Below, one piece after another: positions 16,135 to 35,058 of a stretch of 64,000 nt of DNA (the first letter of the stretch is position 1; each line of letters begins with the position of its first letter). Made by a program: the position numbers and the translations under genes. Below the pieces are notes generated by a model, which saw nothing but the letters and a program-made list of their open reading frames with translations, had not been told where the DNA came from and did no database searches. Source of the stretch: Elusimicrobiota bacterium. GTDB lineage: Bacteria > Elusimicrobiota > Elusimicrobia > UBA1565. The DNA lies in NCBI GenBank assembly GCA_016196755.1, contig JACPXC010000007.1, positions 124,001 through 188,000 of the forward strand. The letters run 5' to 3'.

Positions 16135-16815
16135 ATGGGCGCTCTCCTAGCCTTCCTCCTCCTCGCCTCGCGGCCCGCCGCCGCCCAGGTCGAGCCGACC
16201 ACGAGCGTGCGCGTCGAGGTCTCCACCGCGCAGATCCTGGGCCTCGACTGCAGCCGCCGCCCCTTCGCCTGGGAGAACACCAAGGCCACCGGACGCTGGT
16301 ACCGCTACATCGCCGGCCAGGCGGTCACCGAGGGCCTCGACCCGCGGCCGATGCTCATGAGCGTGGTCTCCGCCGTCATCCTGACGCCCGTGTACATCGC
16401 CTCGATGCCGGCCGACCTGCTGGCGGCGCCGTTCCGCAAGGACTGCTCGTTTACCCTCAAGCTCGAGGGCAAGCTGGCGGAATGGGCCGGCATGTCGGCG
16501 GGGGCCCTGCCGCTCGAGGCCGAGGCCGTCACCCTCTTGAGCGCCGAGGTCCCCGGCGTCAAGAAGGCCGAATATGCGGTCTTCAAGTCCTCGACGACCT
16601 CCGCGGCCGACGGGCGCTACTCGATCGCTATCCCCGCCGCGTTCTCGCGGGTGCAGACGCTGGCGGTGAAGTGGCGCGTGAAAGGCATGCCGGGCGGCCA
16701 ACTGCAGCTCGACAAGAAGGGCCGGCGCTTCATCCTCAGCGAGCCCGACCCGGGCTTCGGCGTCGGGGGCTCCGAGATGGAGCCCCTCGTCATCGAGCCA
16801 AGCGAGAACAAATAA
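16135..16815 (+). CDS. Secreted protein of unknown function
   Basis: 226 residues with a signal peptide ending RPAAAQ (about residue 18). A possible membrane or buried helix follows at about 73-97 (PMLMSVVSAVILTPVYIASMPADLLAAPF). The C-terminal half is beta-rich and resembles a transthyretin/carboxypeptidase-regulatory-like sandwich (FKSSTTSAADGRYSIAIPAAF, then LAVKWRVKGMPGG). That fold assignment is weak. Two Cys near the start of the mature chain may form a disulphide with CSF later. It ends just before the large inverted-repeat element. Confidence 0.55.
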   Translation: MGALLAFLLLASRPAAAQVEPTTSVRVEVSTAQILGLDCSRRPFAWENTKATGRWYRYIAGQAVTEGLDPRPMLMSVVSAVILTPVYIASMPADLLAAPFRKDCSFTLKLEGKLAEWAGMSAGALPLEAEAVTLLSAEVPGVKKAEYAVFKSSTTSAADGRYSIAIPAAFSRVQTLAVKWRVKGMPGGQLQLDKKGRRFILSEPDPGFGVGGSEMEPLVIEPSENK

Positions 16816-16830
16816 ACGGCTACGGATGAA

Positions 16831-17138
16831 TTTACGCGCCTCGGGCGCGTGGATCGAAGAATCGCGAACGGCCGCGATTCTTCGATCTCGAACGGAGAAC
16901 GGCGGGAAGAAAGGGCACGTCTGCGTGCACGCTTCGCGCACGGTCCAAACAATCGTCCGCCAATTGCGTTTCCAGCAATTCAACTATCCACGTGGATAGT
17001 CCTGGGGATAGAATTTCTCGCGCCGTGCGCGAAGCGTGCACGCAGCCGGGCCAATCCTACTTTGGCCGTTCATTGCTCCAGATCGAAGGATTGCGGCCGT
17101 ATCGCAATCCTTCGATCCACGCGCCCAAAGCGCGTAAA
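16831..17138. repeat. 308-bp nested inverted-repeat element (MITE-like or structured RNA)
   Basis: This fills the only gene-free stretch above 300 bases. Outer arms 16831-16866 and 17103-17138 match as inverted repeats at 32 of 36 positions. Each end contains a perfect 15-bp hairpin starting GATCGAAG: 16852-16887 (6-nt loop) and 17081-17117 (7-nt loop). Internal arms 16921-16943 and 17023-17045 are a perfect 23-bp inverted repeat. The centre holds the perfect palindrome ACTATCCACGTGGATAGT (16983-17000). No coding frame or clear target-site duplication is visible. It lies between convergent gene ends. A short hairpin (17140-17156) overlapping the adenine deaminase stop abuts it. Confidence 0.85.
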
Positions 17139-17147
17139 CAGCTCCGT

Positions 17148-18140
17148 TCAGGAGCTCTTAAGCACCGCGTCGACCTCGGCCAGCCACCGCCGCTTCTCCG
17201 CCTCGGGCAGGAAGCTGGCCTCGAAGGAGTTGCGCGCCAGCGTCGCCAACTCGCCCTGAGTCAGCTCCAGCGCTTCCGCCGTCGCCGCGTAATTCTCGCC
17301 GACGTAGCCGCCGAAGTACGCCGGGTCGTCGGAGTTGATCGTGACGAGCAGCCCCGCGGCCATGAGGCGCTTGAGGTTATGGTCGGCCAAGCGCGCAAAG
17401 ACCTTGAGCTTGACGTTGGAGAGCGGACATACCGTCAATGGCACGCGCTCGGCGGCCAGGCGGGCGGTCACCGCCGCGTCCTCCAGGCAGCGCACCCCGT
17501 GGTCGATCCGCCGTACCTTGAGGAGATCCAGCGCTTCGCTGATGTAGGCGGGAGGTCCTTCCTCGCCGGCGTGGGCCACGGTCAGGAACCCCTCTTTTCG
17601 CGCTCGGTCGAAGACGGCCCGAAACTTGGACGGCGGATGGCCGGCCTCCGACGAGTCCAGGCCGACGGCGGCGATGCGGTCCCTGAACGCCAGCGCCTGC
17701 TCCAAGGTCTTCATCCCGTCGTCGGCGGAGAGGTGGCGGAGAAAGCACAGGATGAGACGGAAGGAGAGCCCTGACTCGGAAAATCCGGCCCAGAGGCCGC
17801 CTAGCGCGGTCGCCAACGCCACCCCTCGCGCGGCATGCGTCTGCGGGTCGAAGAACACCTCGGCGTGGCGCACCCCGTCGGCCGCCGCGCGCGCGGCGTA
17901 GGCCCGGGCGAGGTCCGCGAAGTCGCGCTCCTTAAGAAGGACCCGCGCCCCCTCGTAATAGATGTCGAGGAAGGACTGCAGGTCGCCGAACTCATAGGCC
18001 GCGCGCACCTCCGCCACGGTCTTAAATCGCAGCACGACGCCGTTGCGCCGAGCCAGCTCGAACATCAGCTCGGGCTCGAGGGTCCCCTCGATGTGGAGGT
18101 GGAGCTCCGCCTTGGGCAGACGGCGGGCGAACTCCCTCAC
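17148..18140 (-). CDS. Adenine deaminase (adenosine-deaminase superfamily)
   Basis: 330 residues. The GTG start at 18140 overlaps the permease stop (GTGA). Zn-binding His14 and His16 lie in the segment LPKAELHLHIEGTLEPEL. Later motifs are VGLDSSEAGHPPSKF, TVAHAGEEGPPAYI, RIDHGVRCLED, and NSDDPAYFGGYVGENY. These are the subgroup signatures of microbial adenine deaminases (adenine + H2O to hypoxanthine + NH3) rather than of classical adenosine deaminase. The purine permease in the same operon supports a role in purine-base salvage. The name is by family motif; substrate was not tested. Confidence 0.85.
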   Translation of the reverse strand: MREFARRLPKAELHLHIEGTLEPELMFELARRNGVVLRFKTVAEVRAAYEFGDLQSFLDIYYEGARVLLKERDFADLARAYAARAAADGVRHAEVFFDPQTHAARGVALATALGGLWAGFSESGLSFRLILCFLRHLSADDGMKTLEQALAFRDRIAAVGLDSSEAGHPPSKFRAVFDRARKEGFLTVAHAGEEGPPAYISEALDLLKVRRIDHGVRCLEDAAVTARLAAERVPLTVCPLSNVKLKVFARLADHNLKRLMAAGLLVTINSDDPAYFGGYVGENYAATAEALELTQGELATLARNSFEASFLPEAEKRRWLAEVDAVLKSS

Positions 18141-34170: not shown

Positions 34171-35058
34171 CTATTTCCGGAACCGGCGCGCGCGGTCCGA
34201 GCCGTGGACCTCGCGGTGGCAGTCGGTGCAGCGGTCGCGCTGCACCCAGGTGGCCTGGGTCGTGGTGTTGGTGGTAAACGAGGCGTGCTCCTTGTTGTGG
34301 CAGCTCACGCAGAGGAACTGGATGGGCATCTTGAGCATGCGCTCGTTGGTGGAGCCGTGGGGCAGGTGGCAGTTCTGACAGCCGTCGGCCACCGGCGGGT
34401 GCTCGTGCATGAACGGGCCCATCTTGTCGGTGTGGCACTTGGCGCAGGTCTCCGCGAGGGAGTCGGCCTTGAGGTTCCCCTCGATGCCGCCGTGCGGGTT
34501 GTGGCAGGAAGCGCAGGTCATCTTGCCTTCGAGCACGGGGTGGTGGGAGGCCAGACGCATGTCCGCCTTCTGCTTCTTGTGGCACTTGAGGCAGGTGTCG
34601 GTGGCGCCGGCGGTCAGCGACTTGTTGCCCGAGCCCTTGTGGACGCTGTGGCAGGTCGTGCAGCTCACGTCCGAGTTGGCGTGGGAGCCGGTCTTCCACA
34701 GCATCAGGTTCTTGTCCTTATGGCAGCTCAGGCAGGTGTCCGTGACCGCTTGGGGGGACATCTTCTTCGGGTTGAGTATCTTCGTTATGTCCCCGCCGCC
34801 GTCGGCGTGCGCGGACCCGGGACCGTGGCAGGACTCGCACATGTTGGCGAGCTTGGGGTTCGACTGGGCCTTGCGGCCGTGGAACGTCTTGTCGAAGGTC
34901 TCGTGGACCTCCGCGTGACAACTTGCGCACGCCTCGCGCCCGACGAACTTGGGCGCCTCCGTGCCGGCCGCGTCCGCGCCCCGCGCCTGGGCCCCAAGGG
35001 ACGCCGACAGCGCCAAGGCCGCCGCCAGCATCCAGGCTCCTTTGAGAATCCGTTCCAT
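34171..35058 (-). CDS. Decahaem c-type cytochrome, MtrA/DmsE/PioA family
   Basis: 295 residues with a signal peptide (about 1-28). Ten CxxCH haem sites are visible: CASCH, CESCH, CLSCH, CTTCH, CLKCH, CASCH, CAKCH, CQNCH, CVSCH, CTDCH. Length and haem count match MtrA/DmsE. It should sit in the periplasm plugged into the MtrB barrel. I chose the ATG at 35058, which has GGAGGAG just upstream; an in-frame ATG at 35076 is possible. A sigma-54-like site lies 45 bases upstream. No outer-surface MtrC-type cytochrome is in the window. Confidence 0.93.
   Translation of the reverse strand: MERILKGAWMLAAALALSASLGAQARGADAAGTEAPKFVGREACASCHAEVHETFDKTFHGRKAQSNPKLANMCESCHGPGSAHADGGGDITKILNPKKMSPQAVTDTCLSCHKDKNLMLWKTGSHANSDVSCTTCHSVHKGSGNKSLTAGATDTCLKCHKKQKADMRLASHHPVLEGKMTCASCHNPHGGIEGNLKADSLAETCAKCHTDKMGPFMHEHPPVADGCQNCHLPHGSTNERMLKMPIQFLCVSCHNKEHASFTTNTTTQATWVQRDRCTDCHREVHGSDRARRFRK

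Follow-up and report, generated by a model that had tools for sequence, protein, structure and literature searches.

Location and anatomy of the element

The window analysed here is a stretch of 64,000 nucleotides from an Elusimicrobiota bacterium (assembly GCA_016196755.1, contig JACPXC010000007.1, positions 124,001 to 188,000 of the forward strand). Within this window, an inverted-repeat element extends from position 16822 to 17147 and fills the space between two convergent genes. The gene on its left side (16135–16815, plus strand) encodes a protein of 226 amino acids without an NCBIfam match, and its stop codon ends 6 nt ahead of the element. The gene on its right side (17148–18137, minus strand, start approximate) is an adenosine deaminase according to NCBIfam, and its TGA stop (17150–17148) touches the right tip of the element. 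The original prediction, made from the sequence of the window, had put the element behind an 'adenine deaminase' gene on the minus strand. Its position agrees with our analysis; the NCBIfam name is adenosine deaminase, and the plus-strand gene at 16135–16815 is followed by the element just as well. The span of 16831–17138 that had been proposed is at the right place but falls short of the real extent (16822–17147), which includes a 9-nt tip conserved among the copies. The deaminase locus offered no exact empty site: in a congener (G002) the deaminase gene is followed directly by another gene and the element is absent.

The left tip of the element is ACGGATGAA (16822–16830, plus strand). The boundary of the tip is defined by the information content of 126 ends from 63 elements, which drops to background beyond −9/−10 from TTTACGCGC, and the family consensus of these 9 nt is ACGGMGNNR, often with an A before it. 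The tip is followed by TTT and a first hairpin, hairpin A (ACGCGC-CTCGG-GCGCGT; 16831–16850 including TTT, plus strand), and then by a second, hairpin B (16852–16887, plus strand), in which 16852–16866 pairs with 16873–16887 around the loop AACGGC. The left inner arm (16914–16943, plus strand) includes CTGCGTGCACGCTTCGCGCACGG and recurs in copies of the same genome. The centre is occupied by the 18-bp palindrome ACTATCCACGTGGATAGT (16983–17000, no strand), in place of which other copies carry different palindromes of the type AACT...AGTT. The right half is read on the minus strand and consists of the inner arm (17023–17052), which is the inverted-repeat partner of 16914–16943 with a match of 93%, hairpin B (17081–17117; stem 17081–17095 with 17103–17117, 7-nt loop), hairpin A with AAA (ACGCGC-CCAAA-GCGCGT; 17119–17138), assigned from its sequence and the alignment of distinct ends, and the right tip (17139–17147), delimited by the same information content and read on the minus strand as ACGGAGCTG. 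The outer arms of this copy comprise 16822–16867 and 17102–17147, and both of its hairpin B stems are perfect over 15 bp.

The inverted repeats and the central 18-bp palindrome of the original prediction are present where it had placed them. Folding of both strands, which it had suggested, yields z-scores of −16.9 (minus strand) and −15.2 (plus strand) against dinucleotide shuffles. The observation is real and far beyond chance.

Conservation of pairing in the terminal hairpins

Comparison of the copies reveals that the two hairpins of an end are kept differently. Hairpin A has six pairs, four of which never vary, and 99.7% of its cells are paired among 56 distinct ends, with a nearly invariant sequence. 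Hairpin B has 15 pairs and a highly variable sequence, with double changes at 14 of the 15. In the window copy, the two 15-bp stems differ at exactly two positions and each change is compensated, from which it had been argued that pairing is preserved through mutation. Among the copies at large this is massively so. Over the 56 distinct ends, 95.7% of the cells are paired against 80.3% in shuffles, double-change cells number 180 against 58.5 (0 of 500 shuffles being as high), and the covariation score is 0.404 against 0.138 in shuffles, sliding of the structure giving no more than 0.14; since the ends share descent, the shuffles overstate the significance of this covariation. However, a single ancestral change does not account for such a number of different paired stems spread over more than one genus. 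An independent count gives 60 distinct pairs of hairpin B arms. In a set of 40 truncated unique stems, 97% of the positions are Watson-Crick compared with 52% after column shuffling, and three or four Watson-Crick types occur at 12 of the 13 stem positions.

Preservation does not extend to the long fold as a whole, which had also been thought to matter, because within an element the left stem matches the right one at an average of only 66% of positions. The two diverge freely and are identical in 2 of 57 elements, whereas the local stems are 99% paired and hairpin B is perfect at both ends in 50 of the 57. Constraint, or correction, acts on each local hairpin by itself.

The word correction refers to an explanation in which the fold is unselected and covariation arises from the mutation process: during replication, template switching or intrastrand correction would repeatedly copy one palindrome arm onto the other. 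The stems are indeed almost perfectly Watson-Crick with hardly any half-way pairs, and the central palindromes behave likewise: they vary yet stay palindromic, over at least 14 bp in 20 of 63 centres where 1.1% would be expected. As the source of the covariation itself, template switching is a serious alternative. It leaves unexplained, however, the constant sequence of hairpin A, the motif ACGG that both the loop and the tip keep among the copies, and the spread of the copies. As a full account of the element we regard it as very unlikely.

Size, spread and variants of the family

The window copy is one member of a dispersed family, without a protein of its own, in uncultured Elusimicrobiota. 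The search for further copies that had been proposed returned many in the same genome and more in its relatives; together with the compensated stems, this excludes the outcomes that had been named as refuting the prediction, namely one copy alone, or arms whose changes are uncompensated. The end motif TTTACGCGCNTCGGGCGCGTG occurs 65 times in the genome of the window with up to two mismatches and 0 times in the reversed control. By a first pattern, the ends number 64 in this genome, 126 and 4 in the congeners G001 and G002, and 16 in G003, which belongs to a sister genus; a stricter pattern gives 62, 126, 3 and 15, respectively. These numbers come from genomes that are mostly many-contig metagenome-assembled genomes (MAGs), in which identical copies have been merged at contig ends and the assembly lacks the bodies of carriers. 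By the stricter pattern, 9 of 341 Elusimicrobiota genomes match, every one of them in the order of the window. The MAGs with the end motif include FW305_bin.15, CG_4_9_14_3_um_filter_62_55, NC_groundwater_1680_Pr3_B-0.1um_70_15 and MJ-2014_bin-0981. One match in an Oscillospiraceae MAG (L118) has neither hairpin B nor the tip and was taken as chance, and viral contigs gave no match to the end motif.

Elements range from 200 to 700 bp in length. A copy of 718 bp (L055 2696–3413; G000:C16:31695–32412) contains a minus-strand open reading frame of 144 amino acids that matches DUF6998 (PF22522, E 1.2e-43), which shows that a gene can lie inside the element. Shortened versions also occur. At loci L145, L159, L153, L117, L167, L149, L178 and L165 the element is single-ended, one hairpin end being followed by a central palindrome such as AACTATCCCTAGGGATAGTT, often then by GTGGATAA or similar, and the second end is absent. 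Solo palindromes, in which two tips enclose one hairpin A and hairpin B is missing, were found in G000 at C45:38992, C61:38437, C51:5236, C24:15693 and C21:40371. Most of them lie directly behind stop codons, and they are probably deletion remnants. An unrelated long perfect inverted repeat, GTGCCGTGTCCGGGGTGTTGCCCCGTCG...CGACGGGGCAACACCCCGGACACGGCAC, is present beside a copy of the inner arm at about 34530–34620 of G000:C57 (L065).

Target sites, carriers and RAYT loci

Among the 63 elements, direct repeats flanking the tips of lone copies are not longer than in randomly paired or shuffled flanks at any offset, and therefore lone copies show no target duplication. Neither this duplication nor a partner transposase with matching ends, both of which had been suggested for checking, was found for lone copies in the loci read. 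Partnerless ends of the congener, read by eye for a long autonomous copy, gave only truncated or single-ended versions, with the bodies of multi-copy elements missing from the assembly. No exact empty site was found that would show an insertion directly.

Some copies of the element are located inside other repeats. A first carrier of about 444 bp has the ends CTCCATG and CTTGGAG, and contigs break at its copies; when its left-end and right-end contigs are matched, exact 8-bp duplications (GAGGGCGG and TGCGGGGC) are obtained, while other pairings give 6 or 7 bp. A second carrier has the ends GGCTCATGGCAC, and 4 of its 6 copies are flanked by exact 8-bp duplications. A carrier with the ends GTAACTGC might be IS66-like. 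An element starting with GTAACTGCTCAGGTCGCC, which carries one end of the hairpin element, is present in seven copies at the ends of contigs C6, C13, C19, C33, C35, C41 and C58 of G000 (L241–L247); its body is missing from the assembly, and in C6 it includes the apparent 3' end of a reading frame. Some of the copies in the genome of the window are thus due to passive carriage inside such elements.

The composites bear on the possibility that the element is a classical miniature inverted-repeat transposable element (MITE), in which a DDE transposase recognises the terminal inverted repeats and makes a target duplication. Terminal inverted repeats, many copies and the lack of coding capacity would agree with such a MITE, as would the exact 8-bp duplications around composites of two carrier families. 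These duplications belong to the carriers, however, because the composite ends that bound them are unrelated to the tip of the lone element. The lone copies contradict a pure DDE MITE, since they lack a duplication at every offset, and for the family this reading seems unlikely.

One copy sits in the loop of the palindrome CGGTGCCAGTTGTTGACTTGTTGACTT. The same palindrome occurs about a dozen times empty, as doublets of 54–82 bp with differing and often self-complementary loops (L303–L313), and it flanks a RAYT (Y1_Tnp) gene at C26:5745 (L315, G000:C26:4300–6900). CGGTGCCAGTTGTTGACTTGTTGACTT and this RAYT apparently form a RAYT-REPIN system in Elusimicrobiota. A second RAYT gene, at C31:5202 (L314, G000:C31:4300–5757), is flanked by palindromes of the type GGGACAGTCCCTGAAGTTCTGATT, which also surround several copies of the hairpin element. 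Linkage of the hairpin element to a RAYT in cis was rejected, as the fetched flanks of 30 RAYT loci from five genomes contain it in 0 of 30 cases, with neither the end motif nor a BLAST match. No mobiliser was found in what was searched, these loci included.

Placement behind genes and the question of an RNA

Between convergent genes, we found 21 of 32 elements compared with 4 of 68 control gaps of at least 20 bp drawn from the same loci (Fisher P 4e-10). Divergent genes enclose 2 of the 32 elements against 28 of the 68 gaps. Neighbouring stops lie at a median distance of 11 nt from the element; of 51 stops, 8 overlap with the tip. The sample consists of contig loci mostly from FW305_bin.15, with codon-trained gene calls by our own gene caller; the effect is too large to depend on single gene calls.

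Such a placement, with copies directly after stop codons and mostly between convergent genes, would suit an RNA element that is transcribed behind genes and whose hairpins act as terminators on both strands or protect the end of the mRNA, RNA selection keeping the pairing. The very stable predicted fold on either strand and the strong covariation of the hairpins point in the same direction. However, insertion that is merely tolerated would give the same placement. On the outward strand there is no T-tract after the terminal hairpins (TTTT occurs within 20 nt at 6 of 126 ends), so that the GC-rich hairpin plus T-tract of an intrinsic terminator is not found at the element ends, and a terminator scan returned one terminator-like site against 0.5 expected. 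An Rfam scan of the window region gave no match. A role in transcription is possible but has no T-tract signature behind it.

The base pairs themselves also bear on this reading. The original prediction had interpreted the four mismatches between the outer arms as G-U pairs of a minus-strand transcript, which holds at 16840, 16842, 16860 and 16863 but not past the 5' arm of the hairpin. When the 3' arms (16873–16887 and 17081–17095) are compared straight from the sequence letters, both compensated changes appear as G-T on the plus strand and A-C on the minus strand. The strand argument cancels because any compensated change gives the opposite sense in the other arm; apart from two changes in the loop of hairpin A, it favours neither strand. 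Moreover, G-U pairs make up about 1% of hairpin B cells, the loop-closing pair excluded, and a hand count in the stem table gives 6 G-T and 5 A-C cells. The rarity of G-T and the cancelled strand argument favour a hairpin acting at the DNA level over one acting as RNA. Of the two readings offered originally, a structured RNA or a MITE, the multi-copy, mobile-looking MITE type is supported, and a minus-strand RNA is not, with G-T about as rare as A-C. A 3'-end RNA element appears improbable to us.

A model for movement

We consider it fairly probable that the family is a non-autonomous mobile element which moves in a REPIN-like manner, by an enzyme acting in trans that reads a folded single strand and makes no target duplication. 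Each end is composed of the short tip ACGG..., hairpin A with its fixed sequence and hairpin B with its kept shape. In this model, the trans-acting enzyme would read both ends as folded single strands, identifying hairpin A by its sequence and hairpin B by its shape, and would insert the element without duplicating the target. Copies would then persist mainly where they are least harmful, immediately after stop codons and especially between convergent genes, the placement reflecting tolerance rather than benefit. A narrower version is more tentative, and we hold it to be possible rather than probable: two-tier ends, with one hairpin read by sequence and the second by shape alone, would be used by a non-RAYT enzyme on folded single-stranded DNA, without target duplication, at gene 3' ends of one Elusimicrobiota lineage.

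In this family, one hairpin exists in dozens of natural variants that keep the pairing while nearly every base has changed, and the two ends of one element vary independently. The family is a ready test of what reads the shape of DNA, and also of whether palindrome correction alone imitates structural selection.

Comparison with known systems

Integron attC sites are recognised by their folded shape, with variable sequence. The element described here resembles them in having a shape with variable sequence, and one copy holds the DUF6998 gene. In contrast to attC, it is two-ended and inverted; no cassette arrays were noticed around the copies read. The double-hairpin elements of mitochondria, for example in fungi, are mobile-looking hairpin units in intergenic DNA. 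They belong to eukaryote organelles, and their likeness to the Elusimicrobiota element is by description only. MITEs of DDE insertion sequences share with it the non-autonomous nature, terminal inverted repeats and high copy number, and some copies travel inside such elements. They differ in that lone copies of the Elusimicrobiota element lack a target duplication, in place of a fixed terminal sequence it ends in hairpins whose sequence varies, and a partner transposase was not found in the loci read.

REPINs and REP dimers, which are mobilised by RAYT transposases (PMC3116915, PMC3733652), are similar in several respects. Like them, the element is a non-coding inverted doublet of palindromic units with a variable spacer and many copies (PMC3116915, PMC3733652); it shows compensatory changes in the stems and has solo units as remnants. 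Published REP dimers are likewise placed behind genes, and between convergent genes both stops are often no more than 20 bp away (PMC3733652). However, the element has no GTAG or CGTC tag at the hairpin base: in the alignment of 56 distinct ends, TTT precedes hairpin A, G or GG lies between hairpins A and B, and the tag is absent from the consensus. It also has no linked RAYT in the fetched flanks of the 30 loci. Each end contains two hairpins, one fixed in sequence and one in shape, compensation takes place within each end and not between left and right, and the length is 200–700 bp. Finally, G-T pairs are rare in the element, whereas they are often observed in GTAG REPs (PMC3733652).

The element is proven neither as a REPIN nor as an RNA. 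Its layout and placement fit a REPIN, but we do not file it as one because the GTAG/CGTC tag, the RAYT linkage and the left-right compensation are lacking. It provides an example of a REPIN-like element carried inside other transposons, and it brings an understudied phylum into the range of REPIN-like elements, here with neither the usual tag nor a RAYT link, so that either RAYTs act in trans on untagged repeats or another mobiliser exists.
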